Assembly: GCF_021699195.1 (NCBI RefSeq)
Contig: NZ_SSXE01000003.1
Span: 1 to 64,000, forward strand
DNA from: Nonomuraea sp. MG754425
GTDB lineage: Bacteria > Actinomycetota > Actinomycetes > Streptosporangiales > Streptosporangiaceae
Reading direction: 5' to 3'
Length of the DNA stretch: 64,000 nt
Of the stretch, positions 48,119 to 55,883 are shown in pieces. The notes under the pieces were generated by a model. That model did not search any database, was not told the origin of the DNA, and was given only the letters and a program-made list of their open reading frames with translations. Numbering within the stretch: position 1 is the stretch's first letter; every line of letters starts with the position of its first letter. Made by a program: the position numbers and the translations under genes.

Positions 48119-49825
48119 TCAACCGGTCAGGAACTGGGTGGCGGCCAGCTCTCGGTACAGTTCGTCGGCGCCCACGAGTTCGTCGTGGGTGCCCGTCGCC
48201 CGTACGCCGCCGCCCTCCATGACGACGATCCGGTCGGCGCCGGTCACCGTGGACAGGCGGTGCGCGATGACCAGCACGGTGGTCTCCTCGGCGACCTCGG
48301 CGATGACCTCGCGCAGGCGCAGCTCGTTGACCGCGTCGAGCTGCGAGGTGGCCTCGTCGAGCAGCAGCAGCCTGGGCTTGCGCAGCAGCGCCCTGGCGAT
48401 GGCCACGCGCTGCCGCTCGCCGCCCGACAGCAGCACGCCGCGGTGCCCGACCGCCGTGTCCAGGCCGTCCGGCAGCCTGGACACCAGGTCGTCGAGCCGG
48501 GTGCGCGCGACGGCCCTCAGAAGTTCCTCCTCCGTCGCGTCCCGGGCGGCGAAGAGCAGGTTCTCCCGCAGGGTGCCGGCCAGCACGGGCGCGTCCTGCT
48601 CGACGTAGCCGAGCGCGGCGCGCAGCTCGCCGAGCGGCCAGTCGCGGATGTCCCTGCCGTCGATGCGGATCGTGCCGGACTGGTGCTCGTAGAAGCGTTC
48701 GAGCAGGGCGAACACCGTGGACTTGCCCGCGCCGGACGGCCCCACCAGCGCGGTCAGCCCGCCGGGCGGCACCTCGAAGCTCACGCCGTCGTGCACGACG
48801 GGCCGGTCGTCGCCGTAGCGGAAGACCACGTCCTGGAAGGTCAGCCCGGCCGGTCGCCCGGCGCCGGGCGTCTCGGTGGTCGCCGCCTCGGCGGGCAGGT
48901 CCTCGATCTCCTTGATCCGCGCCAGTGCGGCCAGCCCCTGCTGCAACTGCACCCCGCCCTGGACGAGCTGCCCGATCGGCGGCACCAGGTAGAACAGGTA
49001 CAGCAGGAACGCGATCAGCGACGACACCTCCAGCGTGCCGGCGGCGACCCTGGAACCGCCCACGGCCAGCACGGCCAGGAACGCGATCTGCACCGACATC
49101 CACGTCGCCACCCCCGCGAGCGACGTCCAGCCGGCCACCTGCAGACCGCGGTCGCGGGCGCGCGCGGCGGCCTCGCCGACCACGGCGATCTCCCGCTCCT
49201 CCGCGCCGCTGGCCTTGACCGTCCGGTACGCCTGCAACGCCCGGTCCAGCACCGCGCCCATCTCGCCCACGGCCTCCTGGGCGTGGGCTTGCGCCCGCTG
49301 GATCTTCGGCATGATGAGCGCGACCAGCCCGCCGATCACCACCACAATCAGCAGGGTGACCAGCAGCAGCACGCCGTCCATGGTCGCCATCATGACGACC
49401 GCGCCGACCAGCATGAACGCCGCGCTGACGGACTCGACGATGCCGTTGGTCAGCACGGCGCGCAGCAGGGTCGTGTCACCGGTCACGCGTGACAGCAGGT
49501 CGCCCGGCTTGAGCCGGTCCACGTCGGCGACCTTGAGCCGCAACATGCGATCGACGAGCCTGCGCCGGGCGCCGAGCACGATGCCCTCGCCGGTGCGCTC
49601 CATCAGGTAGCTGCCCCCGGCCGAGACGACCGCGCCGACCAGCACGGCCACGGTCAGCCAGAGCAGCGGCCCGGCCATCGACCGGTCCTGGCCGAAGGCG
49701 TCCACCACGTACTTGGCCAGCAGCGGCATCGACAGGCCCGCCGCCGAGCCGATCAGGCTCAGTAACCCGCCCAGGACGAGGATCTTCCGGTGCACGCGGA
49801 CATAACCGAGCAGTTCCTTGACCAC
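48119..49825 (-). CDS. ABC multidrug/lipid exporter, fused membrane and ATPase domains
   Basis: A half-size exporter of about 568 residues with six helices (about residues 15-300) and a C-terminal ATPase. Walker A is GPSGAGKST, the signature LSGGERQRVAIARAL, Walker B LLLLDEATSQLD, and the switch VIAHRLSTV. It probably works as a homodimer for drugs, lipids or peptides. The GTG at 49825 follows AAGGGAG; an upstream in-frame start at 49888 is less likely. A strong promoter overlapped by two inverted repeats lies upstream. Confidence 0.9.
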   Translation of the reverse strand: MVKELLGYVRVHRKILVLGGLLSLIGSAAGLSMPLLAKYVVDAFGQDRSMAGPLLWLTVAVLVGAVVSAGGSYLMERTGEGIVLGARRRLVDRMLRLKVADVDRLKPGDLLSRVTGDTTLLRAVLTNGIVESVSAAFMLVGAVVMMATMDGVLLLVTLLIVVVIGGLVALIMPKIQRAQAHAQEAVGEMGAVLDRALQAYRTVKASGAEEREIAVVGEAAARARDRGLQVAGWTSLAGVATWMSVQIAFLAVLAVGGSRVAAGTLEVSSLIAFLLYLFYLVPPIGQLVQGGVQLQQGLAALARIKEIEDLPAEAATTETPGAGRPAGLTFQDVVFRYGDDRPVVHDGVSFEVPPGGLTALVGPSGAGKSTVFALLERFYEHQSGTIRIDGRDIRDWPLGELRAALGYVEQDAPVLAGTLRENLLFAARDATEEELLRAVARTRLDDLVSRLPDGLDTAVGHRGVLLSGGERQRVAIARALLRKPRLLLLDEATSQLDAVNELRLREVIAEVAEETTVLVIAHRLSTVTGADRIVVMEGGGVRATGTHDELVGADELYRELAATQFLTG

Positions 49826-49897
49826 CACATCTCCCTTCACGATATTTCGCGTCTTCTCCAACGAACGAAGGAGAGCGATCCGTGCCACCCGGATGGC

Positions 49898-49940
49898 GTC
49901 AACTTAGATTGACGACTTAAGTATGTCAACTTTGGTTGAC
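49898..49940 (-). promoter_or_regulatory. Promoter with twin operators before the ABC exporter
   Basis: On the minus strand TTGACA (49929-49924) and TAAGTT (49906-49901) with a 17-base spacer form a near-consensus promoter. Two inverted repeats overlap it: GTCAACTTAGATTGAC at 49898-49913 and GTCAACTTTGGTTGAC at 49925-49940. One covers the -10 and one the -35, a typical repressor layout. The regulator is not evident nearby. Confidence 0.7.
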
Positions 49941-50056
49941 GCATATTCCCGGGAGGACGACCGACATCCGGAGGCGGCCCGCGGACGAATAGGGCGTCGA
50001 GGAACCCCGGCCGGAACCTCGTCCGTCACGATCAGCCCTTTCCGAAAGGACCGAAC

Positions 50057-51433
50057 ATGGAGCTCCGGACCAACCGGCGCGCTCTGGTCGGACTCGGCCT
50101 CGCCGCGGCGCTCGCCATCACGTCGGCGGCCGCGCTCCGCACCGACTCCGGCACGGCTTCCTCGCATCGCGAAGCGCCGATGATCTCGGGGGACCCGCAG
50201 CACGACAACACCGACGTGTACGCGTTCGTCAGCCCCGACAAAGCCGGCACCGTGACCCTGCTGGCCAACTGGATCCCGTTCGAGGAGCCGCAGGGCGGCC
50301 CGAACTTCTACCCGTTCGCCACCCGGTCCCGGTACAACATCAAGATCGACAACAATGGTGACGGCAAGACCGACATCACCTACCAGTGGGTGTTCCGCAA
50401 CGAGGACAAGCGCGGAACCACCACGTTCCTCTACAACAACGGCCCCGTCACCTCGCTGGACGACCCCAACCTGCTCTTCCGCCAGCGCTACACGCTCAAG
50501 CGGATCACCCCCGGCGGCTCCAAGACGCTGGTGGACGACGGCGTCGTCGCACCCAGCAACGTCGGCGCCGCGTCGATGCCCGACTACGGCGCGCTGCGCG
50601 GCCAGTCCATCAAGAGCCTGCCGGGCGGCGGCAAGTCCTTCGCCGGGCAGTCGGACGAGGCGTTCTTCCTCGACCTGCGGGTCTTCGACCTGCTCTACGG
50701 CGGCGACCTGTCCGAGGTCGGCCAGGACACCGCCAAGGGCTACAACGTCAACACCGTGGCCCTCCAGGTGCCGCAGTCGGAGGTGGCGCTCAAGGGCGAC
50801 GCCAAGCGCAACCCCGTGATCGGCGTCTGCTCCACCACCGACAAGTTCAACGGCCGCTCGTACGTGCAGGTCTCGCGCCTGTGCAACCCGCTGGTCAACG
50901 AGGTCGTCGCGCCCGCCGGGCTGAAGGACGCCTACAACGCCCTCGACCCGTCGCAGGACGCGGACGTGAAGGCGCTGGTCGACCGGGTCACCGACCCGGA
51001 GGTGGCCAGGCTGCTCCAGGCCCTGTACGGCATCAAGGCGCCCGCGACCCCGCGTACCGACCTGGTGGAGATCTTCCTGACCGGCATCGCCAAGCAGAAC
51101 GGCCCCATCAAGGCCGACCTGAACTCGCAGGTGCTCAACAAGGACGCCGGCAAGCTGCGCCCCTCGGAGCAGTTGCGGCTGAACATGTCCGTCCCGCCGG
51201 CGAAGGACCCGAACAGGCTCGGCGTCCTCGGCGGTGACCTGCAGGGCTTCCCGAACGGCCGGCGGCTCGCCGACGACGTCGTGGACATCGCGCTGCAGGC
51301 GGTGGCCGGCGCCGCGCAGAGCGGCAAGCTCATCCCCGGCCTGACCGACAAGGTGGACGGCAACGACAAGCCCATCGGGCAGTCGTTCCCCTACATCCCG
51401 CTGCCCGGCAACGTCGCAGTCAACCAGCGATAA
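50057..51433 (+). CDS. DUF4331 family exported protein
   Basis: A 458-residue exported protein with an N-terminal signal segment (RALVGLGLAAALAITSAAAL) and the typical DUF4331 opening SSHREAPMISGDPQHDNTDV then YAFVSPDKAGTVTLLANWIP. The function of the family is unknown. GAAAGG precedes ATG 50057. It is followed by a TPR protein and a nickel/cobalt-type transporter, which suggests a cell-surface or metal-related role (inference). A hairpin follows the stop. Confidence 0.88.
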   Translation: MELRTNRRALVGLGLAAALAITSAAALRTDSGTASSHREAPMISGDPQHDNTDVYAFVSPDKAGTVTLLANWIPFEEPQGGPNFYPFATRSRYNIKIDNNGDGKTDITYQWVFRNEDKRGTTTFLYNNGPVTSLDDPNLLFRQRYTLKRITPGGSKTLVDDGVVAPSNVGAASMPDYGALRGQSIKSLPGGGKSFAGQSDEAFFLDLRVFDLLYGGDLSEVGQDTAKGYNVNTVALQVPQSEVALKGDAKRNPVIGVCSTTDKFNGRSYVQVSRLCNPLVNEVVAPAGLKDAYNALDPSQDADVKALVDRVTDPEVARLLQALYGIKAPATPRTDLVEIFLTGIAKQNGPIKADLNSQVLNKDAGKLRPSEQLRLNMSVPPAKDPNRLGVLGGDLQGFPNGRRLADDVVDIALQAVAGAAQSGKLIPGLTDKVDGNDKPIGQSFPYIPLPGNVAVNQR

Positions 51434-51440
51434 CCGTCCT

Positions 51441-51473
51441 GACCGGCCGGTTCCCTCTCCAGGCCGGCCGGTC
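51441..51473 (+). terminator. Hairpin after the DUF4331 gene
   Basis: GACCGGCCGG at 51441-51450 pairs with CCGGCCGGTC at 51464-51473 across a 13-base loop, starting 7 bases after the stop. It probably reduces read-through into the TPR gene 117 bases further on. Confidence 0.6.
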
Positions 51474-51589
51474 CACCCCGGCGGCAGGCCACCCGTCTCC
51501 CACCGTCTGCCGCCGTCGCAAGGGCCGGCCGGCCGTGTTCTCCCCGTCACGGCCGGCCGGCTCCGTCTCCCAGTTCTGGAGCCCTGGAC

Positions 51590-52801
51590 ATGCGCGCGTT
51601 CGCGATATTCGCCGGCCTCGCCCTCCTCACGGCGACGCTCTTCACGATCGTCTCCTTCTCCTCCTCGCCGGTGACCCCGCCCGCGGCCCTGTCTCCGCAG
51701 GACCCGCCGGGCCGCGAAAGCCTCCAGGAGCGGCTCAGGCGCGTGCCCGGCGACCACCGAGGCTGGGCCGAACTCGCCCTCCACTACGTGGACCAGGCCA
51801 GGCTCACCGGCGACCCGATGTACTACACGAAGGCCGAAGGCGCCCTGGCCACCGCCGCCGGGCTCGACGGCCGCGACGACACCGTCCTGGCCGGGCAGGC
51901 CGCGCTGGCCGCCGGCCGCCACGAGTTCGCCGACGCGGTCCGCCTGGCCGAACGCGCCGTCGAGGCCAACCCGTACGGGCTCGCGGCCTACGGCGTGCTG
52001 GCCGACGCCAGGACGCAACTCGGCGACCTGGACGGCGCGCAACGGGCCGTGGACCGGATGATGGACCTGCACCCGGGAGTGGCCGCCTTCTCCCGCGCCT
52101 CCTACGCGGCGGAACTGCGCGGCGACCGGGACGGAGCACGCAGGTACCTCGAATACGCCCACGCCGACGCCTGGACGCCGGCCGACCTCGCCTACAGCCG
52201 CTACTACCTGGGCGAGCTGGCCCTGCACGCGGGCGACCTGAAGACGGCGGCCGGCTGGTACGCCGAGGCGCTGCGCGCCTACCCCGCCTACCCGCCCGCC
52301 CTCGCCGGCCAGGCCAGGGCCGCGGCGCTCGGCGGTCGTCTCGACGAGGCGCTCGACCTCTACGACACCGTGGTCCGGCGGCTGCCCCTGCCCCAGTACC
52401 TCATCGAGCAGGGCGAGACCCGGATCAAGGCCGGCGGGCGCGCCGACTGGACGCTGCTCAGGGCCCAGCGCGATCTCTACCGGGCCGCGGGCGTGCGCGA
52501 CGACCTGACGTGGGCCGAGTTCGAGGCCGACCACGGCGACCCGGACCTGGCCGTCGGCCACGCCAGGGCCGAGTACGCCCGCAACCCGAACCTCGTCGCC
52601 GCCGACGCCCTGGCCTGGGCCCTGTACCGGGCCGGCGAACCGGCCGAGGCGCTGCGGTACGCCAAGGAGGCGACCGCCACCGGCTGGCGGAACCCGCTGC
52701 TCGCCTACCACCGCGCGAAGATCGAGCAGGCCCTCGGCCGTCCCGCGCGGGTGGACCCTGGATTCGACCCGACGCTGTCGTCACTGGCGAGGTTCTCATG
52801 A
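51590..52801 (+). CDS. Membrane-anchored tetratricopeptide repeat protein
   Basis: A 403-residue protein with one N-terminal membrane helix (FAIFAGLALLTATLFTIVSF) and a chain of TPR helical pairs, such as DTVLAGQAALAAGRHEFADA, LAAYGVLADARTQLGDLDGA and YYLGELALHAGDLKTAAGWY. It is probably a scaffold outside the membrane. Its stop overlaps the next start as ATGA, so it is coupled to the NicO-type transporter. Confidence 0.85.
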   Translation: MRAFAIFAGLALLTATLFTIVSFSSSPVTPPAALSPQDPPGRESLQERLRRVPGDHRGWAELALHYVDQARLTGDPMYYTKAEGALATAAGLDGRDDTVLAGQAALAAGRHEFADAVRLAERAVEANPYGLAAYGVLADARTQLGDLDGAQRAVDRMMDLHPGVAAFSRASYAAELRGDRDGARRYLEYAHADAWTPADLAYSRYYLGELALHAGDLKTAAGWYAEALRAYPAYPPALAGQARAAALGGRLDEALDLYDTVVRRLPLPQYLIEQGETRIKAGGRADWTLLRAQRDLYRAAGVRDDLTWAEFEADHGDPDLAVGHARAEYARNPNLVAADALAWALYRAGEPAEALRYAKEATATGWRNPLLAYHRAKIEQALGRPARVDPGFDPTLSSLARFS

Positions 52802-54279
52802 GAGTGTTCCGGCTCGGCCTGCTGTCGGCCCTGGCGGGCCTGCTGCTCGCGTTGTGCGCGAGCGTGCTGCTGAGCGGCGCCGCCTCGGCCCATCCGCTCG
52901 GCCGGTTCACCGTCAACCACTACAACGGACTGCGGGTCTCGCCCACGCAGGTGACCAGCCTCGCCGTCGTCGATCTGGCCGAACTGCCCACCCTCCAGGC
53001 CAGGGCGGAGGTGGACGCCTCGTACGCGGCCCGCCGCTGCGCCGCCCTGGCCGCCGCCCAGCGGCTGGAGGTGGCCGGGCGGGCGACGCCGTGGCGGGTG
53101 ACGAGCTCCGCCTTCGCCTACGCCCCCGGCGAAGGGGGCCTGGAGACCAGCCGCCTGTCCTGCCGGCTCGTGGCCGAAGTCCGCGCCGCGGGGGCCATGA
53201 GGTTCACCGACGGGTTCGACCAGGACAGGATCGGCTGGCGTGAGATCACCGTGGCCGGGGACGGCGTGCGGCTGAGCGGCTCGTCGGCTCCGGCGGCGAG
53301 TGTCAGCCGGGAGTTGCTGGCCTACCCCGACGACCTGCTGTCGGACCCGCTCGACCAGCGCACGGCCACGTTCACCGTCGCGGGCCCGGCCCTGGGACCG
53401 CCGTCCGGGTCCGGCGCGGCGGCGGGGGGCACGCCGTCCGGGGGCCTGGACGCCGGGATCGGCGGCCCGCTCGGCACGGCGCTGGCCGCGCTGGAGCGCA
53501 CGTTCACGGGGCTGATCGGCTCGGACGCGCTGACGGTTCCGCTGGGGCTGCTGGCGGTGGGGCTGGCCGTGGTGCTCGGGGCGGGGCACGCGCTCATCCC
53601 GGGGCACGGGAAGACCGTCATGGCCGCGTACCTGGCCGGGCGGCGGGGCCGTCCGCGCGACGCGCTGGTGGTGGGCGCGACGGTGACGGTCACGCACACG
53701 GCCGGGGTGCTGGTGGTGGGGCTGCTGCTGTCGGCGTTCACGACGCTGGCCGGGGAGTCGGTGCTGGCCTGGCTGGGGGTGGCGGGCGGCGCGCTGATCG
53801 CCGTCGTCGGCCTCCGCCTCCTGCGCGACGCCCGCCGCCCGGCCCTGCACGATCACGGGCACGGGCACGGGCACGGGCACGGGCACGGGCACGGGCACGG
53901 GCACGATCATGGTCATGGTCATGGGCACGGGCACGGGCACGACGGCTCCGCGCCCGGCAGGCGGGCGGGGCTGGTCGGGCTGGGAGTGGCGGGCGGCCTC
54001 GTCCCCAGCCCTTCGGCCCTGATCGTGCTGCTCGGCGCGATCGCCCTGGGCCGGACGTGGTTCGGCGTGGCCCTGGTGACCGCGTACGGCGTCGGCATGG
54101 CCGCCACCCTCACCGTCACCGGCCTGCTCCTGGTCAGGCTCGTGGACCGCCTGGAGGCGCGCGCCTCGGCCGGTCGCCGGCTGGCGGCCAGGGTCTCGGG
54201 CCTGGCTCCCGTGGGCACGGCGGCCATGGTCGTCCTGCTGGGCGCGGGCCTGGCCCTGCGCTCAGTGGCATCCCTCTAG
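52798..54279 (+). CDS. NicO/RcnA-type nickel-cobalt transporter with extracellular domain
   Basis: A 493-residue protein. The signal peptide ends near SGAASAHPLGRF, followed by an extracellular domain of about 200 residues with HPLGRFTVNHYNGL. The membrane part begins about residue 245, with AVVLGAGHALIPGHGKTVMA and AYLAGRRG, the metal motif of the NicO family. A loop at about residues 350-382 alternates histidine with glycine or aspartate (16 histidines) and is expected to bind Ni, Co or Zn. Helices follow to the end. The direction of transport (export or import) cannot be told from the sequence. Confidence 0.85.
   Translation: MRVFRLGLLSALAGLLLALCASVLLSGAASAHPLGRFTVNHYNGLRVSPTQVTSLAVVDLAELPTLQARAEVDASYAARRCAALAAAQRLEVAGRATPWRVTSSAFAYAPGEGGLETSRLSCRLVAEVRAAGAMRFTDGFDQDRIGWREITVAGDGVRLSGSSAPAASVSRELLAYPDDLLSDPLDQRTATFTVAGPALGPPSGSGAAAGGTPSGGLDAGIGGPLGTALAALERTFTGLIGSDALTVPLGLLAVGLAVVLGAGHALIPGHGKTVMAAYLAGRRGRPRDALVVGATVTVTHTAGVLVVGLLLSAFTTLAGESVLAWLGVAGGALIAVVGLRLLRDARRPALHDHGHGHGHGHGHGHGHGHDHGHGHGHGHGHDGSAPGRRAGLVGLGVAGGLVPSPSALIVLLGAIALGRTWFGVALVTAYGVGMAATLTVTGLLLVRLVDRLEARASAGRRLAARVSGLAPVGTAAMVVLLGAGLALRSVASL
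53848..53943 (+). repeat. GGGCAC hexanucleotide repeat encoding a histidine-rich loop
   Basis: The hexamer CACGGG (Gly-His codons) repeats about a dozen times with a few GAT/GGT interruptions, encoding 16 histidines within 32 codons inside the NicO-type transporter. The tract may vary in copy number by slippage. Confidence 0.85.
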
Positions 54280-54302
54280 CGGGGAGCCGCGGCGGGCGTG
54301 CG

Positions 54303-55055
54303 TCAGGTGTGCCGGCGTCCGCGCCGGGTGGACGGCAGGTCGTGACGTCCGGACAGGAACTCCTGGAACGCGATCTTCGCCCTGATCGCCGGCCGCCGCC
54401 ACCGCTCCTCGCGGTGGATGGCTTTGGCCATCTTGCGCGGCGACTGCCCGGCGAAGAACCAGCGGGCCCACGGCGAGCCGGGCCGTGCCAGCCGGATCGC
54501 CCCCACCAGCAGCATGGGCGGCACGAACAGCCCGGCCATGCCCGTCCAGATCTTGCCCTTGAGCAGCGTGACGACGGCTAAGGCCAGATTGGCCACGATC
54601 AGCGCGGCGGGGTTGACGGGGGTGCCGTAGTTCCAGGTGAGGGGGCGCAGGCCGATGAGGAGCAGGCCGGTCACGGCGACCGCGATGAAGACCGCGTCCA
54701 CCGAGGTGCGCCCCTCCTCCTCCCAGTAGACGTCGTGCAGGTGCAGGATGAGCGCGAACTCGTCGAGCACCAGCGCCGAGCCGACGCCGAAGACGGAGGC
54801 CGCGACGGCGGTCCCGGCCTGCGAGCTGGGCGAGACGATGAGCGTGACCCCGCCGACCAGCATCAGCACCACGCCGAACACCACGTGGTGGATGTGCATC
54901 TCCCCCACGTTGATATTGCGGAACCAGCCGATCTTCGCCCTGATCAGCCGGACGTTGATCCGGGTGGCGATGAAGGCGGCGATGAGCATGACGAAGTAGC
55001 AGAACAGCGGCAGCCGTCCTGTGGCGATGATGCTTTGCTGAAACCAGTCCCTCAT
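54303..55055 (-). CDS. Conserved integral membrane protein, function unknown
   Basis: A 250-residue protein with about six hydrophobic helices. Notable are the histidine cluster MHIHHVVFGVVLMLVGG and the conserved acidic stretch VLDEFALILHLHDVYWEEEG. Such histidine and glutamate residues suggest a metal or redox site, but I recognise no characterised family. The C-terminus is basic and cytoplasmic in composition. It is convergent with the NicO-type gene, with only 23 bases between them. Confidence 0.75.
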   Translation of the reverse strand: MRDWFQQSIIATGRLPLFCYFVMLIAAFIATRINVRLIRAKIGWFRNINVGEMHIHHVVFGVVLMLVGGVTLIVSPSSQAGTAVAASVFGVGSALVLDEFALILHLHDVYWEEEGRTSVDAVFIAVAVTGLLLIGLRPLTWNYGTPVNPAALIVANLALAVVTLLKGKIWTGMAGLFVPPMLLVGAIRLARPGSPWARWFFAGQSPRKMAKAIHREERWRRPAIRAKIAFQEFLSGRHDLPSTRRGRRHT

Positions 55056-55136
55056 GGCACTGGTTCCGATGGTATGAGGAGATCGCCTGTTCCAGGTGCT
55101 TTGCCACTCCCGGACGGCCCGCGCCGCGCCCGCCGC

Positions 55137-55883
55137 TCAGGCCAGGAACGCCCGTAGCAGGGCCGCCGTCCCCTCCAGGTGCTCCACGACCGCCCGCCTG
55201 GCCGCCTCGGGGTCGCCGGCGAGGATGGCGTCCACGATGGCCTGGTGCTGCGCGACGGCGTGGTCCAGGTTGACCTGGAGCATCGGGATGGCGTTCAGCA
55301 GGTCGCTGACCCGCGAGCGGGCGTCCGCGCAGGCCGTGGCGAGCAGGGTGGAGCCGGTCAGCTCGGCGATCGACAGGTGGAAGGCGGTGTCGAGGCGGCG
55401 GTAGTCCTCCAGCCCCGCCTCGTTGAGCTCGGCGAGCCGGCGTACGAGCACGGCGCGCCTGTCCTGCGTCAGCTCGGACGCGGCCAGCACCTGGGCGGCC
55501 CCGCACTCCACGGCCAGTCGGAAGGTGAGCGCGTCCGTCAGTTCGGCCGTGCCCATCTTGTTGACCGCCTGGCGCAGGTCGCCGGCGTCCGGCCGGGGCG
55601 GCACGTACGTGACGAACGCGCCGCCGTAGCGGCCCCGGCGCACGTCGAGGTAGCCCGCGTCCGACAGGGCGCGGATGGCCTCGCGCAGCGTGACCCTGCT
55701 GATGCCGAGCCGCACGGCGAGCTCGCGCTCGGGGGGCAGTTTCCGACCGGGCGGGACGACGCCCAGTTTGATCGCCTGGAGCAGCCGTTCCACCGTCTCC
55801 TCGAAGGCGTTGCCCGCTCTGACCGGGCGCAACACCGTCATCAAACGCGCCGACTCGTCCAACGTGTCCTCAGGTCTTGACAA
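55137..55883 (-). CDS. FadR/GntR family regulator with FCD domain
   Basis: A 248-residue regulator. The winged helix comprises LGVVPPGRKLPPERELAVRL, GISRVTLREAIRALSDAGYL and DVRRGRYGGAFV. The C-terminal FCD domain has the metal-binding pattern DTAFHLSIAELTGS and AVAQHQAIVDAILAGD. It is divergent from the gamma-glutamylation operon, which it probably represses, like other FCD regulators placed next to catabolic genes. The start is uncertain: TTG 55883 is the outermost, and ATG 55841 is possible. Confidence 0.9.
   Translation of the reverse strand: MSRPEDTLDESARLMTVLRPVRAGNAFEETVERLLQAIKLGVVPPGRKLPPERELAVRLGISRVTLREAIRALSDAGYLDVRRGRYGGAFVTYVPPRPDAGDLRQAVNKMGTAELTDALTFRLAVECGAAQVLAASELTQDRRAVLVRRLAELNEAGLEDYRRLDTAFHLSIAELTGSTLLATACADARSRVSDLLNAIPMLQVNLDHAVAQHQAIVDAILAGDPEAARRAVVEHLEGTAALLRAFLA

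Follow-up and report, generated by a model that had tools for sequence, protein, structure and literature searches.

What do three adjacent genes do together when they encode an exported protein of the family DUF4331, a tetratricopeptide repeat (TPR) protein and a transporter with a histidine-rich loop? The genes occupy positions 50057–54279 of a 64,000-nucleotide stretch of contig NZ_SSXE01000003.1 (the window) from the 11.3 Mb genome of Nonomuraea sp. MG754425. A first-pass annotation had taken them for an undescribed metal system of the cell surface, a guess that holds well on genome evidence. Our analysis makes it probable that the locus encodes an envelope module, a relay that handles one transition metal. 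The gene order, the gene overlap, the co-occurrence of the genes and the rules at the N termini of their products can be read directly from the sequences; new among our results are the N-terminal rule of DUF4331, its coupling to the TPR protein and the NicO-type permease, and the spread of the gene set across phyla.

The first gene (50057–51433, forward strand) encodes a 458-residue, predicted exported protein that matches the whole of PF14224 (model positions 1–421 of 421; E 3.7e-148; 494.7 bits against a cut-off of 27) and thus belongs to DUF4331. Its signal peptide of 34 codons (50057–50158, forward strand) has a predicted cleavage site at GTA↓SSH, which would leave a mature N terminus of Ser-Ser-His (50159–50167, forward strand). 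An X-X-His sequence at a free N terminus is an amino-terminal copper and nickel (ATCUN) site for Cu2+ and Ni2+, and proteins that carry one include albumin, hepcidin and Hpn-like. DUF4331 resembles these proteins in its predicted free N terminus followed by X-X-His; unlike them, it keeps the motif nearly invariant across a large bacterial family, in exported and non-exported forms alike.

The constancy of this arrangement became apparent in a pool of 226 distinct DUF4331 sequences, drawn from all loci in an uneven sample of species after removal of matches that span fewer than 250 model columns and of repeats of the same 250-residue core, and classified with hydrophobicity cut-offs, Shine–Dalgarno words and neighbour limits (4 kb for TPR and 6 kb for the permease, on both sides and both strands) of our own choosing. 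Long-type proteins (n = 184) have a hydrophobic stretch ahead of the motif in 168 cases, none of which has a start codon three residues ahead of the His (H-3), whereas the 16 that lack the stretch all start exactly there (16/16, MSSHREAP). Short-type proteins (n = 42) have a start codon at H-3 in 32 cases (MSHH, MSNH, MADH, MSDH and similar), and among the 36 with no hydrophobic stretch ahead of the motif, 31 start there; five others are classed as exported (A↓SDH twice, A↓SHH, G↓ADH and T↓SDH). Across the 173 exported proteins, position -1 of the predicted cut is Ala in 167, Ser in 3, Gly in 2 and Thr in 1, and the -3 residue is Ala in 83, Ser in 44, Gly in 33, Val in 8 and another in 5, with the position between them unconstrained; the pattern is therefore that of a classic signal-peptidase cut leaving X-X-His. 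In the 48 non-exported forms, a Shine–Dalgarno word precedes the H-3 start in 28, compared with 127 of 1,508 control places, and the annotated start is the H-3 start in 5 of the 6 that are annotated. Five sequences, all of short type, were left unclassed: L035, which is cut by a contig start; L204 and L206, which have no His3; L205, which is ambiguous; and L230, which was missed by the search pattern and is also exported (A↓TSH) (handles with L denote loci and those with G genomes).

Together, His3 stands behind a predicted free amino terminus in 173 exported and 48 non-exported forms out of 226. The N terminus thus seems to be kept exactly two residues ahead of the His by two maturation routes and in two subfamilies that are only about 23–28% identical over their aligned parts. 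A cut at SS↓H in place of A↓SSH is permitted by the -3,-1 rule, yet we rejected it because H-5 is Ala, Ser, Gly or Val in 168 of 173 sequences while H-4 is free, and because the M-SSH and M-SHH starts would be left unexplained. Export by the twin-arginine translocation (Tat) pathway was also considered: the N-regions contain RR in 107 of 173 sequences but a loose Tat motif in only 11 of 173, so the Sec route is assumed. A C-terminal membrane segment is present in 83 of 167 exported long-type proteins; that of the window has none. In nine loci (L054, L060, L100, L130, L132, L147, L152, L247 and L248), a gene labelled from sequence as class F sortase-like lies directly behind DUF4331, about 1.3 kb past its middle, and the DUF4331 proteins of these loci have no clear LPxTG at the C terminus.

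The fold gave no function for DUF4331, as neither structure search returned a usable match. The AlphaFold2 model of the mature protein has a predicted local distance difference test score (pLDDT) of 86.8 and a predicted template modelling score (pTM) of 0.92; with it, Foldseek found nothing at E ≤0.001, and the 50 rows listed by VIA-align were all at Z <6 and nearly all antibody chains. A sequence search of the PDB with DUF4331 found nothing. This lack of a relative of known function, by fold or by PDB sequence, would suit a DUF4331 that is an ordinary surface protein with no role in metal handling, in which SSHREAP is a structural motif and the neighbouring permease carries something else. 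We consider this improbable: the exact distance to His3 is kept whether or not the protein is exported and across both subfamilies, and the partner permeases described below are of metal type in three families.

The permease gene (52798–54279, forward strand; 493 residues) begins with a signal peptide of 31 codons (52798–52890, forward strand) with a predicted cleavage site at ASA↓HPLG. The ectodomain that follows (52891–53388, forward strand) would therefore start with His1-Pro-Leu-Gly once the signal peptide is removed. This prediction is consistent with the homologues: 118 of 119 have His-Pro where it is expected (116 found by motif, and L227 and L139 by eye), the exception, L032, seems out of frame, and Ala occupies -1 of the cut in 108 of the 116 found by motif. 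The first-pass annotation had noted a large extracellular domain; an ectodomain is indeed predicted, with the correction that it follows a signal peptide and spans about residues 1–166 of the mature protein as predicted. The membrane domain (53530–54276, forward strand) contains the motifs HALIPGHGKT and THTAGV and, between membrane helices, a loop (53845–53955, forward strand; residues 320–353 at pLDDT <50) in which we counted the 16 histidines claimed for it. By the positive-inside rule, this loop probably faces the cytosol.

The identification of the transporter as NicO was right as to kinship, with the reservation that the window protein itself does not reach the curated threshold of NicO PF03824 (19.9 bits against a cut-off of 27.7). 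All 27 members of alignment A2, including that of the window, match NicO at E ≤0.01 (best 8e-15), and the protein is, as judged from sequence, a divergent NicO member or a relative. It also matches NF007454 (nickel/cobalt efflux) at 77.8 bits, below the cut-off of 195. With NicO/RcnA proteins (PF03824, NF007454), the window permease shares the membrane domain, HALxPGHGKT, THTxGV and the His-rich loop; unlike them, it carries an ectodomain (about 166 residues) behind a signal peptide, and it scores below the Pfam and NCBIfam cut-offs. H233, G238–K241 and H269 are invariant in alignments A2 and A4. In its AlphaFold2 model, the membrane part resembles CcdA (VIA Z 8.0), and a PDB sequence search with the permease gave weak matches only (E 0.07 and worse), mostly to the His-rich loop.

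The fold predicted for the ectodomain suggests how His1 could be used. The AlphaFold2 model of the permease, built from the window sequence and 44 sequences from named records, has a mean pLDDT of 80 and a pTM of 0.52, with block means of at least 90 over residues 11–140; its ectodomain consists of strands 8–16 and 20–29, helices 31–40 and 45–56, and then further strands. The best PDB match was 9gce, Cu-bound RbAng-1a (Foldseek E 1.8e-3, probability 1.00; VIA Z 8.6, root-mean-square deviation 4.1, 135 aligned residues, 13% identity), tied in VIA with zinc-binding ZrgA (8f1b, Z 8.4) and with PA4063 near (Z 7.2); these three head the VIA list for the ectodomain part. According to the accessible part of the 2025 paper on anglerases (PMC12537917), these are proteins in which a domain with an N-terminal His feeds a Ni-type permease, described for HupE/UreJ permeases; the Cu ligands of RbAng-1a are His1 and Asn41, and ZrgA is named as the nearest relative of Ang-1. 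Compared with the anglerases Ang-1 and Ang-2 as described there, the window permease has the same sequence of signal peptide, mature N-terminal His on an ectodomain and Ni-type permease, and the predicted ectodomain is, like Ang-1, a beta-sandwich in which helices join strand 2 to strand 3. It differs from anglerases in that its permease is NicO/RcnA-like, not HupE/UreJ-2 (PF13795), and in that it is encoded with DUF4331 and a TPR protein. PF13795 was absent from the families matched by the 27 permease members, in which NicO was present, and because the HupE/UreJ-2 domain is missing we do not file the window permease as an anglerase. The invariant Asp28 and Glu31 are candidate metal ligands of the ectodomain.

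Between these two genes lies the TPR gene (51590–52801, forward strand), whose 403-residue product has an N-terminal hydrophobic anchor and then TPR repeats (PF13428, PF14559 and PF13432, all above cut-off). As the N-terminal segment is hydrophobic in 133 of 137 homologues, the protein is likely an outward-facing scaffold held at the membrane. Its stop codon overlaps the permease start codon in the four bases ATGA (52798–52801, forward strand), exactly the overlap first reported; this arrangement would couple the translation of the two genes. The spacer of 156 bp that separates DUF4331 from the TPR gene (51434–51589, forward strand) contains three strong RNA hairpins: positions 51425–51600 fold with a minimum free energy of -95.5 kcal/mol (z -5.0), and z was ≤-2 in 53 of the 75 DUF4331/TPR spacers folded, of 96 suitable (25 shuffles each). 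A single transcript with DUF4331 at a higher level than the TPR–permease pair would fit this layout; the hairpins thus suggest a surplus of DUF4331, expected if DUF4331 is a carrier. An Rfam scan of 49000–55500 found nothing at gathering score.

The gap with its hairpins would also fit three unrelated genes that are neighbours by chance. We give this a negligible probability, because the neighbourhood is kept across Actinomycetota and partly in other phyla and because the permease and DUF4331 occur together in 34 of 35 genomes. These counts come from 296 evenly drawn Actinomycetota genomes, searched with profiles grown from the window proteins or from the draw's own 60 loci. DUF4331 was matched in 58 of the 296 genomes; the 60 loci comprise 50 matches of >300 columns, excluding that of the window, and ten of short type, with shorter DUF4331 pieces left out (for example, G117:C81, G205:C1 and G007:C8). 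The 50 long-type loci (L031–L080) have a TPR gene in 39 cases and a permease in 28; the 11 without TPR include three whose DUF4331 has no signal peptide (L036, L067 and L079) and four in which the contig ends soon after DUF4331 (L064, L066, L078 and L080). By contrast, one of the ten short-type loci (L081–L090) has the TPR–permease pair (L089). A collection holding the best locus of one genome per species gave TPR at 74 and permease at 63 of 80 loci, from genera such as Nonomuraea, Streptosporangium, Actinomadura, Lentzea, Saccharothrix, Actinoplanes, Nocardioides and Streptomyces, and five of its six loci without TPR terminate shortly behind DUF4331. The usual order on one strand is DUF4331, TPR, permease (deviating in L100, L102, L139, L140, L146 and L158), and the permease starts at the four-base overlap in 108 of 112 TPR–permease pairs. 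The three reading frames are present as first placed and, far from being rare companions, are regular neighbours in the phylum draw.

Co-occurrence points the same way. Of the 35 genomes in the draw of 296 that encode a permease with a full ectodomain, 34 have a DUF4331 match (hypergeometric P 8e-28, with kinship not removed); the exception is G017, and the match is a fragment in G205 and of short type in G160. In five of the 34 genomes, the two genes are on separate contigs (G022, G084, G149, G189 and G267).

The two partner genes, moreover, follow the export of DUF4331. Exported long-type DUF4331 genes with at least 4.5 kb of downstream sequence have a TPR gene in 125 of 134 cases and a NicO-type permease in 104 of 134, as against neither TPR nor permease in any of 23 DUF4331 forms without a signal peptide. 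Six exported short-type forms include three with the pair (L089, L182 and L230) and three without (L180, L210 and L211), and none of the non-exported short-type forms has it. As the pair is found near exported and not near non-exported forms, TPR and permease track the secreted DUF4331 and not the whole family. In L230 (G401, from the genus of the window genome), a diverged exported DUF4331 (A↓TSHWDAP) is followed by the same TPR and permease genes, so that the pair tolerates both DUF4331 subfamilies. The slot behind TPR also holds other genes, as labelled from sequence: an ABC transporter in L047, a solute:sodium symporter-like gene in L128 and, at L075:675–1580 (reverse strand), a short transporter that looks to be of NicO/NixA type, with a His-rich stretch. 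Two further families were rejected as parts of the module for being too patchy: the class F sortase-like family (11 of 91 less-redundant loci) and a merged cluster of extracytoplasmic function (ECF) sigma/anti-sigma-like genes (up to 20 of 91 loci, within about 6 kb, with some frames spurious). The latter genes are a possible metal-responsive regulator. In Pseudoalteromonas (L175), an annotated sigma factor and anti-sigma factor lie directly upstream of DUF4331.

Beyond the actinobacterial draw, DUF4331 again has transporters for partners, and most of those observed belong to the Ni/Co-type families NicO, HupE/UreJ or NixA/HoxN. On plasmids of Comamonadaceae, Lichenicola, Marinobacter and Pseudoalteromonas, DUF4331 is followed by one to three more genes and HupE/UreJ; the TPR profile matches the intervening gene in Comamonadaceae and Marinobacter but not in Lichenicola and Pseudoalteromonas. 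Two Paraburkholderia plasmids and one Variovorax plasmid, which carry no annotation in this region, have a TPR homologue and a HupE-type protein (HupE as read from sequence). In these Proteobacteria, a HupE-type protein with an N-terminal His fills the slot of the window's permease, and all nine HupE-type partners read have a His right after the signal peptide. Adhaeribacter and Miltoncostaea (an actinobacterium of another class) have DUF4331–TPR, and Nostoc (L182) has DUF4331–TPR with a permease homologue (E 1e-152) that shows HPLGNFTIN after its signal peptide; its annotation as the sulfite exporter TauE/SafE (L182:8465–9955) is probably wrong. In Rhizobium, short DUF4331 genes adjoin HoxN/NixA (R. 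bangladeshense) or HupE (R. leguminosarum). Finally, on the Pseudomonas aeruginosa plasmid pAFM-PA19-3158 (L180), DUF4331, cytochrome c, DUF4198 and HupE/UreJ stand in a row, and a His lies at or close to the N terminus predicted for the mature forms of DUF4331, DUF4198 and HupE. DUF4198, which is Ni-binding according to the accessible part of PMC12537917, resembles DUF4331 as a protein with an N-terminal His encoded beside HupE, and differs in belonging to another family and in using His1 instead of His3.

The system had been said to have no described function. No paper on DUF4331 or PF14224 was found in the open-access literature searched, and the HPLGNF motif appears in none of the open-access papers among the matches listed; the idea of an N-terminal His serving a Ni-type permease, on the other hand, was published in 2025 in PMC12537917, which contains neither of the terms DUF4331 and tetratricopeptide.

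We propose the following relay. Secreted DUF4331 would be trimmed to a Ser-Ser-His start, and its free amine, two backbone amides and His3 would form a tight Cu/Ni site, alone or with other ligands of the fold. The membrane-held TPR protein would act as an outward scaffold on which DUF4331 docks beside the permease. The permease ectodomain, with its His1 on an Ang-1-like beta-sandwich, would accept the metal from DUF4331 and hand it to the NicO/RcnA-type membrane domain, and the 16-His loop would buffer the metal on the inner side. Cleavage at the stated sites, metal binding, docking, and the identity and direction of the metal are the parts of this scheme that we infer. The metal would most likely be Ni2+, with Cu2+ or Co2+ possible; the partner families and, by analogy, the chemistry of ATCUN and Ang-1 sites point to Ni or Cu. 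A hint, although only that, comes from nickel enzymes: nickel superoxide dismutase (Ni-SOD) genes occur in 27 of the 35 permease genomes versus 57 of 261 others (odds ratio 12, with kinship not removed), and, to a lesser extent, urease in 14 of 35 versus 44 of 261 (58 of 82 urease genomes counted, at E <1e-10).

As to direction, we slightly prefer uptake, because two extracellular binding sites in series suit capture. The alternative is that the module exports metal and loads the secreted DUF4331, which would be a surface metalloenzyme or metalloprotein, so that the transporter supplies the compartment of DUF4331. RcnA exports Ni/Co, and HupE and NixA import. The membrane part of the permease is closest to RcnA, whereas the seemingly cytosolic DUF4331 proteins of Rhizobium adjoin NixA/HoxN or HupE, known importer families; with an exporter beside the secreted form and importers beside the cytosolic ones, metal would in both cases flow towards the compartment of DUF4331. 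The protein is also large and conserved, with 69 invariant positions in an alignment of 56 sequences, which exceeds the needs of a chelator. Against export, Proteobacteria combine their exported DUF4331 with HupE/UreJ, presumed uptake permeases, and an exporter has no need for two extracellular binding sites. We regard export and loading as a minority possibility, clearly less likely than the relay as a whole.

Several observations weigh against the relay or against parts of it. That RcnA is the named protein closest to the membrane part argues against uptake. In the model of DUF4331, confidence is low over the first ten residues (mean pLDDT 64). The annotated start of R. leguminosarum DUF4331 is 18 codons upstream of M-SHH, and two short-type proteins have Asp in place of His3 (S-I-D in L204 and S-T-D in L206); these may be natural variants that lost the metal site. 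The fold match of the ectodomain is modest, with no Foldseek match at E ≤0.001 and a TM-score by target of 0.39, and VIA's own note places a best Z of 7–8 in the usual range. Comparison of NicO and HupE ectodomains by hhalign gave a probability of 1.2% (small alignments of 13 and 5 sequences), and that of the whole permeases (45 and 4 sequences) gave no link. A NicO-type permease is missing near 30 of the 134 exported DUF4331 genes, at least some of which have HupE instead. In the Rhodobacterales Sulfitobacter, Paracoccus and Jannaschia (plasmids L173, L184 and L214), DUF4331 is part of a small gene cluster for type II secretion; the stretch examined contains no Ni-type transporter, and DUF4331 may be what a dedicated system secretes. 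The association with Ni-SOD is confounded by kinship, which may explain part of it, given that Ni-SOD genes and urease genes also tend to co-occur.

Prepilin peptidase (A24) is also encoded in the three Rhodobacterales clusters. Methylocystis, Mycobacteroides, two Streptomyces plasmids, strain SC52 and Aliiroseovarius have no Ni-type transporter within the 3–6 kb examined. In the window, the trio is flanked upstream by a divergently oriented ABC exporter-like gene (48119–49888, reverse strand) and downstream by a gene that points towards it and has no Pfam match (54303–55055, reverse strand). An inverted repeat, GTCAAC-N4-(A/G)TTGAC, occurs twice between the DUF4331 and ABC exporter genes (49898–49913 and 49925–49940); it looks like a MarR- or TetR-type operator, probably of the ABC exporter. 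The window's DUF4331 is 84–85% identical to its homologues in Nonomuraea zeae, N. cypriaca, N. sp. SYSU D8015 and [Actinomadura] parvosata.

For the family, our tentative proposal, less secure than that of a metal-handling module, is that DUF4331 is an unrecognised, phylum-spanning family of metalloproteins whose X-X-His site is made by maturation, through signal peptidase outside and methionine aminopeptidase inside, and whose secreted form carries metal within a surface relay of three proteins, the other two being the TPR scaffold and the anglerase-like NicO permease. No function is assigned to this curated family, and a His3 site made by maturation would make its role precisely and cheaply testable. 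If the proposal is true, it would extend the anglerase idea of 2025 to another permease family and add two partner proteins, and it would give a gene set found in Streptomyces, Nonomuraea and further actinobacteria of the soil a role in metal handling at the Gram-positive surface. That two of the three proteins are apparently cut so that a metal-gripping His sits at or near the front end suggests an undescribed mode of catching metal or passing it on at the cell surface.

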